Shown one piece after another: positions 12,150 to 22,054 of a stretch of DNA of 22,054 nucleotides. Numbering within the stretch: position 1 is the stretch's first letter; every line of letters starts with the position of its first letter. A program made the position numbers and the translations under genes. This DNA comes from Pleurotus ostreatus/Saccharomyces cerevisiae fusant (lineage: Eukaryota; Opisthokonta), in contig JAMQCK010000467.1 of the NCBI GenBank assembly GCA_024196135.1, positions 1 to 22,054 on the forward strand, read 5' to 3'. Under the pieces are notes generated by a model. That model searched no databases, was not told the DNA's origin, and saw nothing but the letters and a program-made list of their open reading frames with translations.

Positions 12150-13558
12150 CTATGCGATGAGCCGCATGACATTTTCGTATACCGTGAATACGATCCCTCC
12201 ACTGCACTGTAGAAATCGTCAGCAAGTGTCACGAATGCTGTGTGTAGATGCACTCACCACCAACCGTACCAACCGTGGACCCGTGCCTGTCCAGAAGCGC
12301 AGGATACCCTCTTCGGTGGCGATGCGGTACGCGCAGTGCAGGACGCCGCGGTATTGTGAGCGTGCATCGAGCGATTGCATGCGGGTCTTGACGACGCTGG
12401 GAAGGTGTGTAAGTATGGTATTGGGTACGTAGATCGAGCTGTAAGGATGATTTCGAGCACGACGAGTTGGAAGGGTGATTGAAGAAGTAGAGAAGGCAGG
12501 TTGGCGACGGCACAGAGGAGCGGGATGAAGGTGTAGGAAAGTGAACTTGACAACTTACTCTAGCGGCATCGTCGTGTAGACGGTGACCAACCCTGCGACC
12601 GCACCGATACCGAAGGTGATCGTTGAGGGAAGCTGTTGACCGGGACGTGCGGTGGACTAGGATGCGGATAAGCATGCAGCTTGACTAGAAATGGGATGGG
12701 ATACGCACCTGCACGAACTGCTTGAGCGTCGTGTACGTCGTGAACCGCACGGCAGAGTTCGCGCCTTGTCGGGCCATCTGAAAGAAGATTGAGCATGTCG
12801 GCTACTTCAGAAGAGCAGGGATCACTCTTCAAGAGGGCGAGGGACACTCACGACTGGTATCAAGCCACGGTAGATACCGCGGATGCCTTCTGTGCGCACG
12901 ATGGATATGGTGCCGTGCACGAGGCCGCGGTATTGGGGGTTCGGGCGCTTCGCATCGTCGATGAGCTTGGTCCTGGAAGGAGGGTGAGCGGGGTGTTCTT
13001 AATGAGAGAGAAAATAGACGCACTTGATCGTCTCGCTCGGCGTCACCGCGAGTATTGCCTCTGCCATTCCTGCGCCCAGCCCCGCTGCATGCCTCATGAG
13101 TTGCCTGTTCCCCGCGCACGACCAGTACATACTTACCTAGCAAGCTCCTTGGCGCGCTCACTTTGCCCTACATATTCGTCAGCATTCTCTTTTAGTGATC
13201 CGTAGCCTCCACTCACATTCTCGTCCGCCAACATCGCCTTCAGATGATCATAGGTCAAAAACCTGACCCCCGCCTTCGCCGCGTTCCCCACCACCAACGC
13301 GCCGCACCCCGCATACAAGCCCTTCACCCCATGCTCCTTCACAGTATTGCGCAGAATACTCAGCGGCGCCTCCCTCTGGCCGCCAAACTGCGCGCGCGTC
13401 TTGACGAACTCGGTCGGGTAGGTGATGAAGGCCTCGACGGCGCCCGCGGTCGCGCCGGCGAAGAGGGAGTGCGCGGCCTTTTCGCGTTTGGCTGGAGATG
13501 AGGACGTGGATGTAGAGGGGGAAGCCGCGGCCGCGGCTGCGGTGGTGGAGGTGCTCAT
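12150..13558 (-). CDS. ctp1: Mitochondrial tricarboxylate (citrate) carrier
   Basis: Eight exons on the minus strand (13558-13217, 13167-13137, 13084-13024, 12972-12852, 12777-12709, 12632-12559, 12396-12258, 12206-12150) give 297 residues, the usual length of the family. Three mitochondrial-carrier repeats are marked by the signature P-x-[DE]-x-x-[KR]: PTEFVKTR (48-55), PSETIKTK (140-147) and PLDVVKTR (231-238), each ending the first helix of a repeat. The context words GLGAGMAEAILAVTPSET and the ending SGGIVFTVYENVMRLI are characteristic of the citrate carrier subgroup CTP1, which exchanges citrate for malate across the inner membrane and feeds cytosolic acetyl-CoA. The first 25 residues are Ala/Ser/Thr-rich and not conserved. 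The gene lies head-to-head with the deacetylase gene, 863 nt apart. An alternative would be another di/tricarboxylate carrier of the same superfamily. Confidence 0.92.
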
Positions 13559-14421
13559 GGTGGGTGGAGACGGCGGTGAGGGGGCGTCCGACTCACTGAC
13601 GCGCTCGCCGCCACGCGTGGTGATCTTGATCGTCGATCAGCGCGGTGTGCATCACGATGATGAGCTTCGAGTTCGACTCGACCTGGACACACATTCTTTA
13701 CAGAGACTTTCGGGACTGCTGTGTTCATGTACCTCCATAATTCCGCCCGACTAGGACTCTTTGATGCTGGGCGAGGCCAGTCCTGAGCCGCTCGCATCGT
13801 CGGGTGGTTAGGCCAGTTCCACTTGGACATGACCCTCTAGACAGACAACGAAGTAAATAAGCCACGAGTAGCGATACCATGAACTCCCATACGTCTCAAG
13901 CTTTTCACGTAGTACTCGGAATCTATCGGTCTAGGAGAGCTGCTTATGCCATAGCCCACCGTCGAGGTTTTCGGCACTTGCCGCCCACGGAAGAAGCCGA
14001 GTGCGATCACCCTTACCTAAGTGCCACGAGACGTGCTCTTGACTTCAACGCCGAACACGCATAAGCGACCGAAAGCGCACTTCCTCTTTTTTCAAGCCCT
14101 CTCTTTCACCAGGATTCGGTGTAGCGCTCTGTTTACAGCTTATTAGCCCCACTTGCCAAGACCGAAGCCTCGAAGGTCCAACATATTCGTCTGGCGCAGG
14201 ATACAACAAGGCATCTTGTTCTTGACGCGCGACTTCAACGCGCTTGTGGGCTAGGCGGACAATCAGTAGTGAGTGTGCCCTCTATCTACGGTCTACGCTT
14301 TGCTATCTAGGCCTGAAACACGCTAAGTATCATTCGGTCCTTGTACCGTCCTTTCTTCGCCCGAGTGACCTTGTACTGATCCCTACAATAGACTTTCCAA
14401 TCATCTGCTCTACGGGTCAAG
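13559..14421. other. Divergent promoter region between citrate carrier and deacetylase
   Basis: Both flanking genes start at its edges and are transcribed outward, so this stretch must hold both promoters. No TATA box is obvious for either, in keeping with housekeeping genes. Short open frames inside it show no family resemblance. Confidence 0.55.
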
Positions 14422-16437
14422 ATGGTACGGACATACGAGAAGTTCACCTACTCGGGCTCGCCCTACTTTCCCGATCGCGGCCCGTATGGGGTGGCAGAAC
14501 CCATAACGGAACGAATAAACGTGAGTGCCCCTTCGCGTCAATCAGACCGCTTGCAACGGTGCTCTGAGCTGAAGTGCTTGTACAACCTGGATCTATACTT
14601 ATCTCAATGCTGTAGCCTCATTCACGACCAGCGGTCTCGTATTACTTCCCAAAAGGCGTCGGCTCTTATCACTTCGGGGTGAGTAGCCCGAGGGTTTCTC
14701 GAGTCGCTATCATTCTGAACAACGCCACGCAGGAACTACACCCCATGAAGCCGCACCGTCTTACATTGACAAACGCGCTTGTCATGGGCTATGGCCTCGA
14801 CAAGCAGATACACGAAATCTTCGACGCACGACCAGCCACCCGAGAAGAGCTCGAAGTGTACCACGACGCGGATTATATCGAGTACTTGAGCAAGTAAGCC
14901 ACCTTTTTCACCTCCTCCTCCTCTCCTCGCCCAATCCTCTCCTCACACTTCTTGCCCCTACTACTGTTCTGACCCTCACTGCGTTCCAGAGTCACGCCAC
15001 AAAACCAAAAGTCCATGAAAGCCGAAGTGGAGGCGCACAACTGCGGCGAGGACTGTCCCGTCTTTGCGGGAATGTACGAGTTCTGCCGCAAGTACGCTGG
15101 CGGGACGCTCGCTGCGGCGAGGAAATTGTGCTCGGGGAAGACGGACATCGCGATCAACTGGTCGGGCGGGCTTCACCACGCGAAGCGAGGCGAGGCGAGC
15201 GGGTTCTGCTACGTGAATGATATTGTGCTGGGTATTTTGGAGCTGTTGAGGTGAGTCTCGCGAACTTCGCATTGTTGATTCTTTGTCGTCGGCGATGCTC
15301 ACTAGGTTCAGATACTACCCACGAGTGCTCTATATCGACATCGACATCCACCATGGCGACGGCGTCGAGCTGGCCTTCTACCACACCAACCGCGTCATGA
15401 CCCTCTCCTTCCACAAGTACACCGGCGAGTTCTTCCCCGGGACCGGCAAGCTGGACGATAACGGCATAGGCCTCGGGAAGCACTTCGCACTCAATGTACC
15501 GCTGCAAGACGGGATCGACGACAAGATGTATTTGGATTTATTCAAGAGCATCGTGAACGACGTGCGCGACAAGTACCAGCCTTCCGCAATCGTACTGCAG
15601 TGCGGAGCAGACTCGTTGGGTTGCGATCGTTTGGGCGCGTTCAATCTGTCCATCGCAGCCCATGGGGCGTGCGTTGGCCATGTTCGCGCCTTCGGCATAC
15701 CGCTGCTGGTCGTCGGTGGCGGCGGGTACACCCTCAACAACGTCAGCCGCTGTTGGACGTACGAAACAGCCGTCCTCGCCGGCGCAACCGTACCCGACGC
15801 CCTCCCCCGCACACCGTACGATTCCTTCTTCGCCGACTCCCGATGGACTCTCCACCCGCCACTCACCGGGCGCGTCGACAACCAGAACACGCCGCAGAGC
15901 CTAGCGAAGATCACTAGCGCCATCCGCGGCAAGCTGCGCTACCTCGAGGGCGCGCCCAGCGTGCAGATGCAGGAGATCCCGCCAGATCTGGAGGGTTTGC
16001 TGGCAGAGGAGGAGCGCACGGCGGAAGAGCACGCGGAGGAGCGCGGCGCGGAGTCGGCGGGCGAGTTTCGCGAGGCGGAGGACAAGGCTGAGCCTGAGGG
16101 TGTTAGTGATTCCATGCGCGTCGACTCCGAGGACGTGGAGGCGGATACCTCGGGCGTGTACGGGCGGCGGACGGGCCCTGCTCGGCGAGCGCGCACGCGC
16201 ACCCGGGCGAACGCGGTGCCACATCCGCATACGGACGATGACAGCGCGTCCGACGTGCCTGCACCAACGAAGAGGGGAAGGGGCAGAGGCCGCGGTCGCC
16301 CGCGCGGCCGGGGGAGGGGAGGTAGGGGGAGAGGGGCGCGGCCCACAGTAGCAACAGCAGCAGCCATAGAGGACACCACCGCGGGCGAATCGTCCACGGT
16401 GGACTCCCCGGCACCGGAGATGGAGGTAGATAGTTGA
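14422..16437 (+). CDS. hos2: Class I histone deacetylase, HOS2/HDAC3 type, with acidic and GRG-rich tail
   Basis: Five exons (14422-14520, 14616-14678, 14733-14893, 14990-15250, 15306-16437), 571 residues. The deacetylase domain spans about 42-435. Visible active-site elements are the charge-relay histidines in GGLHHAKR (H170, H171), the zinc ligands D208 and H210 in DIDIHHGDG and D302 in [12 protein letters not shown], and the transition-state tyrosine Y336 in [18 protein letters not shown] matches the HDAC3/HOS2 wording rather than the RPD3 one. HOS2 enzymes remove acetyl groups from histones H3 and H4 in the SET3-type complex in the nucleus. A 40-residue N-terminal extension precedes the domain. 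The C-terminal 130 residues are unusual: an acidic Glu/Ala-rich segment, an Arg-rich patch, then KRGRG...GRPRG (517-538), which contains an AT-hook-like core. The first exon is 33 codons; the stop is TGA. Confidence 0.95.
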
Positions 16438-16627
16438 TCCGGGATCTGCCGATGTGAAGGCACGGAAGTTGAAGTTGCGTCACGCGTGACAGCACTTCTT
16501 GCCACCGACAACTGCGACCCCCGTTGCCAGCCTCCTGCCGTCTTGTACCCGCTTTTGCATCTTGGCGACTGTATACTACTTGGACTGTCTTAACCCTGCT
16601 TGACCCTCACCGCGCTTGTCGTCTGCC

Positions 16628-17449
16628 ATGGATCGCCTCTTCCTCAGCAAGGATAGCTTCCTCTATGACTTCCCTCCCGCTGTCGCTCTGCTTGGGAAAA
16701 ACCACGACCGAGCAGTCGCGAAGCTGACGCCATACCTCGAGGACGGCTCGTTGTCTCAGAGGGACTTCGACAGCACCCTGAACCTGGTCGACACCGTAAT
16801 GGACGAACGTCTGAGCGTGAGCATGCGAACCTTCTCGAAAAAATTGCCTGTTGTTCATGAAAATCACAGCGGACGAATAGGATCATACACTACGCTGGAT
16901 TCTGGGCAGTCAGCATGCTCGCGACGAACAGAATGCTATCGCGGCGACGATGGCCATTCCCCGCGCGCGCCGTAGTCAACATGGTGCCAGCGGCGGCTGC
17001 AGCCGAGCTCTATCTGGTGAACCGAGTAATCCTCGTGGACCACACCAGATGGGAAGGCGGCCTCGCCAACCGTACGCGCATGCGTGGCATACTCTCTGAG
17101 CTGGCCCACTTAGGTAAGTTCAACGCTTCCTTGCTGCGTCTCCACGTCAAAGTCTCACGCTTCGACAGAATACGGCACGGATACGGTGGCTCAGGCTGAG
17201 CAATCAACAGCACCAGAAGCTGAGCAGCCCGTTGGACGCTGGGCAGAGCTTCGCAGGAAGTGGGCGGCCTCGAGAGCGAAACGAACCTCGGTCGCACAAA
17301 TAGCTGCCCAGGCTGCTGGTGCCGAGGACCCCGTGGAGGTCGCAGAGGCGACCATACCCACACGTCCGCACGAATCTGCTGCGCTTACGGCGGAGGAGAG
17401 GCGATTCAAGGAGCTTGTGGATATACGGGAAAGGACTTCGTCGTACTAA
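16628..17449 (+). CDS. Small two-helix membrane protein of unknown function (paralog 1)
   Basis: Three exons (16628-16816, 16870-17113, 17169-17449) give 237 residues. I do not recognise the family. Residues about 39-55 are a conserved TPYLEDGSLSQRDF helix-like block. A hydrophobic segment (about 71-86) and an Ala/Val-rich one (about 97-112) are separated by a basic SRRR loop, so a hairpin in a membrane is likely. The C-terminal 110 residues are hydrophilic, with VGRWAELRRK and a closing AEERRFKEL motif. The next gene (17958-18840) has the same exon plan, phases and motifs in the same order, so the two are tandem duplicates. The ATG is 190 nt after the deacetylase stop. The two-helix layout is loosely reminiscent of OCIA-domain proteins, but this is weak. 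Intron 1 is placed at GTGAGC, which keeps phase. Confidence 0.8.
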
Positions 17450-17957
17450 TTTGCCTTCCAAAGTTGTAAGACGTACTTTGTAGATTGTACATCTCCATCA
17501 TAGACGACTCACCCCCCCTCCCTTTCACTGTATTTCAAGCCTACATATACATAGACAACATATAGCTTAGTACTTTGCTTTTGGCATCTCATCCCTATGC
17601 ATACATATCATCACTCGAACAACTGGATTCCCCCCACATCGCCCTTCATGACCAGGAAAGCCCTCGAACACACGTAGTTTTGGCCTTGAGGGTACTATGG
17701 CTGAGGACGAGTTGCACGTATGACCGATCCCCTGGCAGAGTGCGAGATTTGTACGGCGGGGCGGGCTCGCTTTGAGGTTATGGACAGGTGTGGGTCCACA
17801 TAATCGCGCGCACGTGCTCTATTGCCGCACGGCATCCGACCGCGTCCAGTGCGGTCATCTTCCTTCCTACCTTCACGTCGGTGGGTTCGACGAAAGATCA
17901 TACGGTGCAGCTATAGAGGATAAGTCAACATCCTGAAATCCCAAACAGACGCGCAAT
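17450..17957. other. Spacer between the two-helix paralogs
   Basis: Holds the 3' UTR of paralog 1 and the promoter of paralog 2. No gene, TATA box or strong repeat was seen; the left part is pyrimidine-rich. Confidence 0.5.
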
Positions 17958-18840
17958 ATGGACCCCTCAGCTGGGTCCTCCTTCAGTGCTGAATCAACCG
18001 GCAATGGCGAGCCAGACCGGCGGATGCCGTTCCCTCTCGCGATCTTGGGAACTCAGCGCGAGACTGCTGCCAACCTTCTGAGGCCCTACATCGAAGAAGG
18101 TCGTCTAAGCGAGAGCGATGCGGAGCGCACGCTGGACCTTGTGTCGGCGGACAAGACGGTATGTATAATCACCATTTCGTCAATAGTGAATAGCTGAGCG
18201 CCGAACGAACTGATGATATTCTTCAGATCTTCCACCGCGCGGTCGTCCCCGCGGCTGTGGGTACTGCCGTATCCGTCGTGCTATACTACGCGATGTCGCG
18301 CAGGGGATACTCGCTAGGCAAGCGCGTCATGGTCCCCGCTGGAGTCGGCACCATCCTTGGGGAAACCATCACCATCAAGCGCCTCCGAGACGACTACGCG
18401 GGCTGGAAGAACGGGCTGACCGACGAGCCTGCGATGCGCGAGGTCCTGCGCGAGCTGATGTATGCTAGTAAGTGCAACTATCCACTTCAGATATGCCGAC
18501 GCCTTGATACCAACGCATCACAGACAACCGCCGCAGAGAGGCGCCAGGTCAAGGACCTGCGCCGGCTCAACCTGGTCGCGTGCAGCAGCAATTGCAGGCT
18601 GACGCGCCTGTCGACCGCTGGAGCGAGTTGCGGAAGGAAGCTGGCGTGACGCAGCCGTCGTCGTGGGATACGCTCCGGCAGTCGAAGGGGCGCGCGGGGC
18701 TGCCTCCGCCCATAGCACCAGCGTCTCCCATCGGAGCGCAGGCCGCGGCGGCGTCGCCGCCCGCGGAGCAGCTGGAGATGACGCCGGAAGAGCGGCGCTT
18801 CAAGGAGATGATGGACAGGGAGAACAGGCCGTCGATGTAA
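17958..18840 (+). CDS. Small two-helix membrane protein of unknown function (paralog 2)
   Basis: Three exons (17958-18158, 18227-18467, 18524-18840) give 252 residues. It shares with paralog 1 a block reading RPYIEEGRLSESDAERTLDL, then a first hydrophobic helix (about 72-90), a basic turn MSRRGY, a second Gly/Ala/Val-rich helix (about 101-116), a middle GLTDEPAMREVLREL block (paralog 1: GLANRTRMRGILSEL), VDRWSELRKEAG and the ending PEERRFKEMMDRE. The long C-terminal part is rich in Pro and Ala and looks disordered. The intron phases (0 then 1) are identical to paralog 1. No signal peptide is seen, so an internal membrane such as the mitochondrial or endoplasmic-reticulum membrane is possible, but no location can be assigned. 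The stop faces the P450 gene, 418 nt away. Confidence 0.82.
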
Positions 18841-19258
18841 GCGCACTAGTGTGCTGGTATGCAGACGAATGCGACGCGACCCTCGAGCAATCCCCTCTCA
18901 TTCCTTGATATGGCATCCTCTTTGGTACGAAGAGACCATTGCGGTACAAGACGGTAGGAGTTCAAGAAGCGAGTGTCATAGCATTCGTGGCGTAAAGGGC
19001 AACATATTTCGTACACAACAGGTATCAAGTTCAGTCCTCGTCAAAATGTCCATCGCACTAGCAGCTACTCAAGAATGCAGTCCTCGGCCGCAGAGGCACG
19101 GACGCTGTAGGTTCTTACACGCGCGGTGCATCCCCGCCCGTTGAAAGCACTCCATCATGCCGACGTCTCAGAGGCAGCGTAAAGATGCAAACACCCAAGA
19201 CTCGGCGTACAGACGCAAACACTCCAAGAGTCGGCGCACAAACAGAGTTCAAGAGGCT
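18841..19258. other. Convergent 3' intergenic region
   Basis: Lies between the stop of two-helix paralog 2 (+) and the stop of the P450 (-). No gene is supported. It contains a two-copy tandem repeat at 19183-19239 close to the P450 stop. Confidence 0.55.
19183..19239. repeat. Two-copy imperfect tandem repeat, unit 28-29 nt
   Basis: Unit 1 (19183-19210) and unit 2 (19211-19239) both follow the plan AGA-Y-GCAAACAC, then CCAAGA, then TCGGCG, then AC, with few substitutions and one extra base. It sits in the expected 3' UTR or 3' flank of the P450 gene. Confidence 0.7.
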
Positions 19259-21851
19259 TTACATCGCCTGCGTCTCCAGCAGCGCGTTCTGCACCAGCCT
19301 CAGCGCCTGCTCCGAGCGGGGCTTCATGGAGCACTGGAAGGGCTTCGGATGTCTGTAAGGTGCGTTAGCGGTATGATCTCCAGCGGTAGGTACGATCATG
19401 AGCGGTGAGTTGGATCAAGGTGGCAAGACACATCCGCGGAGCCGACTCGACTCCAGGGGACGGTCGCCCAAATCCGGGGACAAACGGACGCCCGATTTAG
19501 GGAACGTAATCCCCGATTTCGTAGCTCGTGTGCCCGATACTCCCAAACTCCCGCCCGATGCCCGATCCTCTCTAAATAGAGCACTTACCTGACGAAGCCC
19601 GTGGAGAACTCGCTCGAGGGCGTGATCTCCGCGCCTGTCTCATCGCGGGCCTTTTCGATGCTGAAGACAGTGGAGATGCGCGAGTTCAGGAGCCAGAGCG
19701 CTGCGTCGGCGAGGTGGCGGCCAGGGCTGAGAAATGAGGTATAAGTTCAGGCGACCCGGGAGACCGTTACGTGGTATAGCTCACCATCGCCTATGGAGAA
19801 GAATGAGTAAGCGATGGTCTACAAGCACATCTTACGCACGTACCTTCTTCCGAAGCCAAAGACGCAGTCTGAAGCGTAGAAAGAATGAAAGTCCAGGTCA
19901 GCGGCTGACAAGTGTCATCGCGACGGAGACGAACCGCGTGGATCTCTCAAGTCAGGATTCTCGAGGTAGCGTTCCGGGCGGAATTGATGGGGGTTCTCGC
20001 AGTCGTAAAGCATAGCGCTGGGCATATTAGATAGCGGAAGAAAAAGAAAAAGTTCAAAACGCACTAGATGTTGGGTATGACGAAGGCATCTTCAGGAATG
20101 AGATAACCCTTGTAGATGTCGTCCTATCGCGAATGATGTGAGTCTTGGTCTAGGGAAACAAGGACAGGGACGCCTATACCTGCATTAGGCGATGTGGTAT
20201 CGCCAGCGGGACCGGGACGTTCCACCTGAACGGCAATTCATTGACATCGACTCTCACGTCTCACGGCAACGCGTTGCGCACCTGTAACACTCCTTCACGA
20301 CACACTCGAAATACGGCATCAACGGCCGATCCTCGAAAGTGGGGAGGCGGTCGGGTCCAACGACGCGATCAATCTCCTCTTGGACCTTGGCGTAGACCTC
20401 TGGATGGAGAACCATGGCGAGCATGAACACTTCCGCCATGCAGGTCGTCTGTACGTTGTCAGTAAGGCGGAAGCGTCACTGCGAGACAGAGGGTCTTACG
20501 GTATCCTCGGCAGCTGTCACCGACTCAGCGCGAAGCCCATGAACGAAGTCCTCACGTACCCGCGAACAGCGTCCCCGCGGCGCCCCTGATGTCATCCTCG
20601 TCTTCTTGCGACAAGGTTCCCTTACCGGCCGCGGTATATTGCTCGAGCATCCGTGCCGTGAACGATGGCTGGGCGGTACCGGCGCTCTGGCGCCTCATCA
20701 GTCACCATTCTAGTAAGCTCGTTCGCCGCACTCACCATCTGTTGCCTGACTTGCTCGAAGGGTAGGTTCATCATCTCGTCGACGGCTTGCCGTACCTCTT
20801 CGGCCTGTCTCTTGAAGCCTGCCAATGGCGCCCAGGTCGGCAGTTTCCTGTGCATTGAAATCAGTGGAGGAATCCGAGGATTGAGAGCGCTCACACACTT
20901 CATAGACGGGAAGAATTCGACTAGGTTCGAGATGGGATACATATTGCCAATCTGAACCGTCAGTGTAGAGGCATGGTCGACTGCGAGCCGACGTTAGAGC
21001 GTACACTACCGAGGGGTTTTCATCGCACTTACCAATCTTGACTAAAGGATCATCAACGGACGCGACATCGTGACCGTAAGCAACTTTGAGCATAGTGCCA
21101 GCTGCAAATCTGAAACGGCATGAGCTATCGGCTACAGGCCGTCTAGCGCTCAAGAAGGCGCACCCTTTGATGTGATCCATCCAGTTATCTGGCGTCTTCA
21201 ACAAGTTATCGAGCGCGATAGCGGTCTGGCGCAACTCCAGAGGCGTCATGCTGTCGACGGCCTTCTGGTTCAGCACTTGTTGAACGAAGCGCCGGTGCTT
21301 TCGGAAGCGCGGTCCGCTGCAGGCACATTAAATTGATGTTGGGTGAAAATATGAATGGACGTACTAGTGAACGTGAGTTGTGGCATTGCCCCATCCCATC
21401 CTATGGCACGCGGTTAGCACCATGCGAAATCCACGAGCATGTCATGACTGACAGTTCAGCAAGCATCACGAATCGAGGACGGTCGGAGTAGATGGCGCTA
21501 CGCCTCTCCATGAGATCCTGAGCAGCCTCGAACGTGTTGAGTATGATCATATGTTTGCCGAAAATCTCAAGATGCACGACATCGCCTGGCCTACAAGTCA
21601 GCCTACTGCAACCCACGGGACCCGCTGCGCCGCGTCTCACCATATCGCTCCCTCCACTGCATGAACGTAGCCTCCGGCGCCTGCGTGGGCATGTCAAGTA
21701 CATTGCCTATGAGCGGCTTCCGCCGCGGACCAGGCGGATAAGGCGGGCGTGAACTGCCGGGTGCGTACAGCAGAGTCGCAGCACCGACGACGCAGGCAAT
21801 GGCGAGGGCGCCCGCGGTCGTGGATGACATGGTGGTGGTGAGAGAAGACAT
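19259..21851 (-). CDS. Cytochrome P450 monooxygenase, 17 exons
   Basis: Minus-strand exons: 21851-21641, 21585-21453, 21400-21365, 21316-21164, 21109-21033, 20980-20899, 20847-20736, 20686-20560, 20513-20500, 20448-20282, 20225-20180, 20123-20065, 20017-19935, 19868-19844, 19790-19785, 19726-19589, 19352-19259; 520 residues, the normal P450 length. An N-terminal membrane anchor (about 15-30) is followed by a Pro-rich hinge (PPYPPGPRRKPLIGN). Landmarks: YGPRFRKHRR (C-helix), AAAEDTTT (310-317, I-helix oxygen-binding motif with Ala where Gly is usual), ECYR (368-371, ExxR), FRPERY (418-423) and FGFGRRRCPG (437-446), with heme ligand C444. It is an endoplasmic-reticulum enzyme needing a reductase; the substrate is unknown. 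Wording resembles the multi-gene basidiomycete P450s annotated as O-methylsterigmatocystin-oxidoreductase-like. Exon 15 is 6 nt and exon 9 is 14 nt. A second in-frame ATG at 21830 is an alternative start. Confidence 0.93.
19491..19566. repeat. CCCGAT hexamer array with 21-nt period inside the last P450 intron
   Basis: CCCGAT starts at 19491, 19512, 19533, 19554 and 19561, that is, at steps of 21, 21, 21 and 7. The bases between copies are not conserved. The array lies within the last P450 intron (19353-19588), which at 236 nt is about four times the usual length in this gene. Confidence 0.75.
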
Positions 21852-21886
21852 CGAATCCCACGCCTTTACGCATATGAGCGTGTCTC

Positions 21887-21893
21887 TTTTATA
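21887..21893 (-). promoter_or_regulatory. TATA box of the P450 gene
   Basis: TATAAAA on the minus strand, 36 nt before the ATG at 21851 and 57 nt before the in-frame ATG at 21830. If transcription begins about 30 nt downstream, the first ATG would have a very short leader, so the second ATG may be used as well. Confidence 0.65.
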
Positions 21894-21941
21894 CCTAGTA
21901 GACGGCATGTCACGCGGGTCTGGGCGCCCACTTTTTGAGCC

Positions 21942-21989
21942 ATCGGGGGTCGTGCGTCCCGATTCTCTTCCTATGAGATCGGGATCGGG
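21942..21989. promoter_or_regulatory. ATCGGG/CCCGAT cluster upstream of the P450
   Basis: ATCGGG at 21942-21947, CCCGAT at 21958-21963, and two abutting ATCGGG copies at 21978-21989, all within 48 nt and about 50-100 nt upstream of the TATA box. The same hexamer forms the array in the last intron. A binding site for a transcription factor is an inference. Confidence 0.45.
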
Positions 21990-22054
21990 CTTTCGGCTGA
22001 TTGAACAAGACAGCTCATCGATCAGCTATCCCAGGTATCCCCTGCGGTTGTTTT

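Follow-up and report, generated by a model that had tools for sequence, protein, structure and literature searches.

A probable six-nucleotide microexon carrying most of the heme-ligand cysteine codon in a predicted Schizophyllum commune cytochrome P450 gene

Microexons of 2 to 10 amino acids were reported in 2005 in the cytochrome P450 genes of Phanerochaete chrysosporium, the shortest exon being 6 bp, and alternative splicing was also proposed by the authors (PMC1184071). A 1-nt exon was reported in 2026 in CYP621A of Fusarium from manual annotation, with splicing backed by SRA reads (PMC12940212). In Schizophyllum commune, intron retention is the commonest type of alternative splicing event and makes up 43-44% of events in coding regions (PMC5034255).

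The sequence analysed here (the window) is a stretch of 22,054 nucleotides, contig C688 in a genome of 40 Mb. Positions 21667-22054 overlap the end of contig C297 (L083 7050-7437) with 99.2% identity over 388 bases, and the two contigs are probably neighbours.

The P450 gene and its divided heme motif

The coding region was modelled at 21851-19259 on the minus strand, with 17 exons encoding 520 amino acids. All 16 introns are GT-AG and no internal stops were found. Intron lengths are 46-66 nt for 15 of the 16; the last intron (19588-19353, minus strand) is 236 nt, far above the others. The closest catalogued protein was that of S. commune Tattone D (P0001), at 99% identity, and the window is assigned to S. 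commune on that ground. P0001 is the representative of a cluster of 11 member sequences and was the only member examined. It begins at residue 8 (Met8) of the model; the start codon is uncertain, and Met8 may be used instead.

P0001, which was scanned in place of the window's own protein, scored 228.8 bits against the PF00067 profile (cut-off 22.8). The window protein matched solved P450 sequences with a best E of 6.4e-40. Both the ExxR of helix K (ECYR) and the acid-threonine pair of helix I (AAEDT) were read from the gene model. At the sequence level, the profile match, the heme motif, the ExxR and the acid-threonine pair of a cytochrome P450 were all found. Taken jointly with constitutive inclusion of the microexon described below, it is very likely that this is an intact, working cytochrome P450 gene of S. 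commune.

The heme motif is spread over three exons of the minus strand. Exon 14 (19868-19844, 25 nt) contributes CVFGFGR plus two bases of the Arg442 codon, its 3' end reading ...GGA AGA AG. Intron 14 (19843-19791, 53 nt, GTACGT...CCATAG) is in phase 2, with CTTAC and CTCAT as candidate branch sites close to its 3' end. Exon 15 (19790-19785) is the 6-nt microexon GCGATG, with TAG just before it and GTGAGC just after. It carries the last base of Arg442, the whole of Arg443 and the first two bases of Cys444, the heme thiolate ligand. Intron 15 (19784-19727, 58 nt, GTGAGC...TTCTCAG), also in phase 2, splits the cysteine codon as TG/C. Exon 16 (19726-19589) starts CCCTGGC, read as C/CCT GGC, the third base of Cys444 followed by Pro-Gly. 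The three exons and their boundary bases agree fully with the preliminary description, as do the two flanking introns, which are of ordinary length for this gene. Its statement that the 6-nt exon supplies the cysteine was right for two bases of the codon; the third sits in exon 16.

With exon 15 included, residues 437-446 read FGFGRRRCPG. With exon 15 skipped, the frame is kept, RRRC becomes RS, and the reading is FGFGRSPG, which has no thiolate cysteine. The earlier claim that R-R-C-P-G requires the 6-nt exon, and that skipping it in frame gives R-S-P-G, was borne out. The PROSITE heme-signature pattern matched the included form and gave no match to the skipped form.

A relaxed form of the heme motif was sought on both strands of the window. 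The motif could be broken by two introns at most, each 38-109 nt long, and the first had to fall 6 nt or more past the start of the motif. The junction of exons 14, 15 and 16 was the one solution. Transcript reads using other sites that restore the cysteine had been named in the preliminary description as one finding that would tell against it. No single-intron join over 19868-19680 restored FGxGxRxCxG; of the four single-intron joins that link FGFG to HLADA in frame, none has the motif. When the 117-nt interval was shuffled with dinucleotides preserved, an exon of the form AG/6 nt/GT that restored the cysteine arose in 259 of 50,000 shuffles (0.5%). A chance fit is therefore unlikely yet possible, and independent evidence was needed.

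Second copy, congeners and homologues

A second contig, C216 (L084 + L039), is collinear with window positions 12248-21931, with 89.8% identity over 9.7 kb. Probably the assembly is heterozygous and C216 represents the other haplotype. Its P450 coding sequence has neither gaps nor stops and differs from that of the window at 29 nucleotides in synonymous and four in nonsynonymous codons (pS 0.080, pN 0.0033). The small number of nonsynonymous relative to synonymous differences points to purifying selection on the protein. All 32 splice dinucleotides are the same in both copies, and exon 15 is unchanged, within a run of 20 identical bases. Introns 14 and 15 together are identical at 82 of 112 aligned columns (73%), made up of 42 of 53 positions in intron 14 and 40 of 58 aligned positions in intron 15, plus one gap. 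As stand-alone proof the six shared bases are weak, the chance of such a match being approximately 0.15 at 73% identity. Conservation of exon 15 in this copy is supportive, not decisive.

Divergence between the copies is uneven along the gene. Introns 12-15 (20064-19727, compared with L039) have 69-89% identity and introns 1-11 have 90-100%, as if the border of a haplotype block lay within the gene.

P0001 contains FGFGRRRCPG, which lends indirect support to inclusion of exon 15 in transcripts. The models of two congeners do not contain it: that of S. fasciatum (P0002) reads FGFGRRPGRH and that of S. amplum (P0003) reads FGFGRSPGRH, the latter having the same FGFGRSPG as the skipped form of the window gene. 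Aligned to the window protein, both lack residues 443-444, and these are the sole gaps over residues 71-490. The residues at the two junctions, R and S, would be the products expected from CG/Y and AG/Y. Two congener models that lack exactly the residues bounded by exon 15 are best explained by missed 6-nt exons. An equivalent of exon 15 would then be present in the DNA of the congeners, and both catalogue entries are probably wrong at the heme motif. The two proteins nevertheless pass the profile test, with 199.0 bits (P0002) and 196.5 bits (P0003) against the Pfam cut-off of 22.8. The prediction that gene finders would overlook the exon apparently holds for S. fasciatum and S. amplum but not for S. 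commune, whose model P0001 includes it.

Homologues were counted among the best 120 of 1411 matches. The heme cysteine was present in 116 of these 120, and an uninterrupted [FY]GFGRRxCPG in 113. Together with the two models lacking residues 443-444, this argues that an intact conserved protein needs the exon. In P0054 and P0056, Y replaces F (YGFGRRRCPG) and the motif is otherwise regular. Seven of the 120 were irregular at the exon 14/15 junction (P0002, P0003, P0063, P0068, P0070, P0073 and P0094). The model of P0073, from Dendrothele bispora, reads FGFGRRQVITDCPG, with four additional residues immediately before the cysteine, which may point to a further intron or very small exon there. A further search, with the C-terminal portion of P0003 as query, returned 25 proteins and among them no further cysteine-less protein; all 12 new ones had the cysteine in the motif.

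A second very small exon was found in the same gene. Exon 9 (20513-20500, minus strand, 14 nt) encodes A-A-E-D-T, the acid-threonine (oxygen-activation) motif of the I helix, so that both catalytic motifs are carried on very small exons. By alignment, 16 homologues among the best 120 lack the acid-threonine pair; this count replaced that from a loose I-helix pattern, which 28 of 132 proteins failed to match. Four of the 16 (P0067, P0076, P0077 and P0091) simply have no counterpart for three or more of the five residues, and most of the remainder had unrelated residues in place of the motif. These absences apparently reflect a missed 14-nt exon in the models concerned.

Splicing and age of exon 15

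Splice sites were scored with leave-one-out matrices built from this gene alone, a small sample. On these scores, the donors of introns 14 and 15 ranked 2nd and 4th of 16, and the acceptors 8th and 3rd. Retention of either intron leads to an early stop, and skipping of exon 15 requires removal of a 117-nt intron. Good sites, ordinary intron lengths, the size of the skip intron and stops on retention together lead one to expect that the introns are spliced one by one and that the exon is always included. Exon 15 is thus in all likelihood a constitutively included 6-nt microexon, a very short internal exon with GT-AG introns on either side. The two short introns would most likely be removed singly by intron definition, and the joining of exons 14, 15 and 16 would give FGFGRRRCPG. 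We infer constitutive inclusion together with splicing of this kind from the sequence; the exon would be obligatory because most of the catalytic cysteine codon lies in it. Most likely the exon was created by the gain of intron 15 at a point 6 nt downstream of where an older intron 14 ends, a gain that would predate the split of the sampled Schizophyllum species.

Low-level splicing noise is compatible with constitutive inclusion and differs from it in degree only. Exon 15 would normally be included, and some skipping or retention would yield degraded RNA or inactive protein; we regard the chances of this as about even. The difficulty of recognising very short exons counts toward such noise. 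Retained intron 14 or 15 would end in the early stops noted above, and in S. commune retention outnumbers every other kind of event (PMC5034255).

It is rather unlikely that the 6-nt exon is old and common to many Agaricales in this P450 group, as opposed to a Schizophyllum novelty. The models of Guyanagaster (P0063), Desarmillaria (P0068), Tricholomella and Pleurotus (P0070 and P0094) go wrong right after FGFGRR; a gene finder that steered clear of a microexon could have kept intron 14 in the model. P0063 and P0068 have an 18-residue insert straight after FGFGRR, the ends of which can be back-translated to AG/GT... and ...YAG/R, as expected if a phase-2 intron of 54 nt had been retained where intron 14 lies. 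The break in P0070 and P0094 falls at this point too, where they read R-S-A, as an unspliced AG/GTC donor could give. On the favoured reading given above, these inserts and breaks mean that intron 14 probably predates Schizophyllum. Alternatively, the in-frame inserts in P0063 and P0068 may be the work of a gene finder avoiding a microexon, and intron 15 would then be older too. However, an ordinary intron at the intron 14 position alone accounts for the breaks, and the motif is uninterrupted in the great majority of the best 120 homologue models, as counted above.

Other P450 loci of the same genome were scanned as 83 overlapping loci plus the window, taking the solution with the fewest introns. 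This partial survey covered 43 of 103 clustered P450 regions together with loci from other searches, and counted loci with a recognisable motif only. The motif was found at 15 distinct places. The 17/6/7 split of its codons over three exons occurred in C688 (the window) and C216 only; of the other 13 places, four have no intron in the motif and nine have one intron at other positions. A microexon shared with paralogues was set aside on the absence of this split elsewhere in the partial survey. The introns in the heme motifs of L044, L057, L061, L021, L082 and others divide it as 10/20, 6/24, 15/15 or 9/21, none at the site of exon 15.

The preliminary description had further proposed that inclusion or skipping switches the enzyme between active and inactive forms. 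Under such a regulated switch, exon 15 would be included or skipped according to condition, and FGFGRSPG would be a deliberate heme-less protein. Six nucleotides are a multiple of three, so skipping stays in frame, and the skipped form is recorded in catalogued congener proteins. P450 genes are also enriched among the alternatively spliced genes of S. commune (PMC5034255), and inclusion of a 20-nt microexon in Trichoderma Xlr2 was reported to depend on glucose (PMC11121469). Against this, the splice sites flanking exon 15 are good. A regulated microexon usually, though not necessarily, has weak sites or a skip intron of ordinary length; here weak sites are lacking, and the 117-nt skip intron is atypical beside the 46-66 nt of 15 of the 16 introns. 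Of the alternative splicing events in S. commune coding regions, 1% are exon skipping (PMC5034255). Gene-finder errors are a simpler account of the skip-form entries, since irregularities of other kinds occur at the junction in five further homologues among the best 120. The switch is accordingly improbable. It is just as improbable that developmental regulation of exon 15 decides the heme ligand, with FGFGRSPG, as in the S. amplum model, a real second product. If the switch were true, splicing would decide whether a P450 receives its heme ligand.

That GCGATG is not an exon at all, the gene having decayed or lost its cysteine and the fit being due to chance, is very improbable: the shuffles that also restore the cysteine with a 6-nt exon and the cysteine-less models of S. 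fasciatum and S. amplum speak for it, but the gene is otherwise intact and subject to purifying selection, the exon is kept in the C216 copy, and the independent S. commune protein P0001 has the motif.

Comparison with known systems

A cysteine-less catalogue entry resembles a dead or non-heme P450 yet passes Pfam. Activity inferred from predicted mushroom proteins would be misleading exactly at the catalytic residues. No published microexon carrying the P450 heme cysteine was found in the literature searched, subscription journals being mostly outside its scope.

Microexons surveyed in plants are likewise very short (15 nt or less) and mostly unannotated (PMC8831610). That survey differs in its organisms and in being based on RNA-seq (PMC8831610). 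The Trichoderma Xlr2 microexon is likewise fungal, bears part of an essential motif and is missing from the JGI model (PMC11121469). It differs in its length of 20 nt, in belonging to a transcription factor and in an inclusion that reportedly depends on glucose (PMC11121469).

In CYP621A, as here, a fungal P450 microexon lies inside a conserved motif and is required to assemble the protein (PMC12940212). There the exon is 1 nt long and falls in the PKG motif, and its omission breaks the frame (PMC12940212); exon 15 is 6 nt long and falls in the heme motif, and its omission is in frame. The P450 genes of P. chrysosporium are likewise from a basidiomycete; their short introns are numerous and their smallest exons measure 6 bp (2 amino acids) (PMC1184071). 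The passages cited from that report do not give the place of the 6-bp exon in its gene (PMC1184071); exon 15 here holds most of the heme-cysteine codon. Fungal P450 microexons were already known. On the best reading, what is notable at the present locus is that the catalytic cysteine is the cargo of a constitutive, easily misannotated exon.
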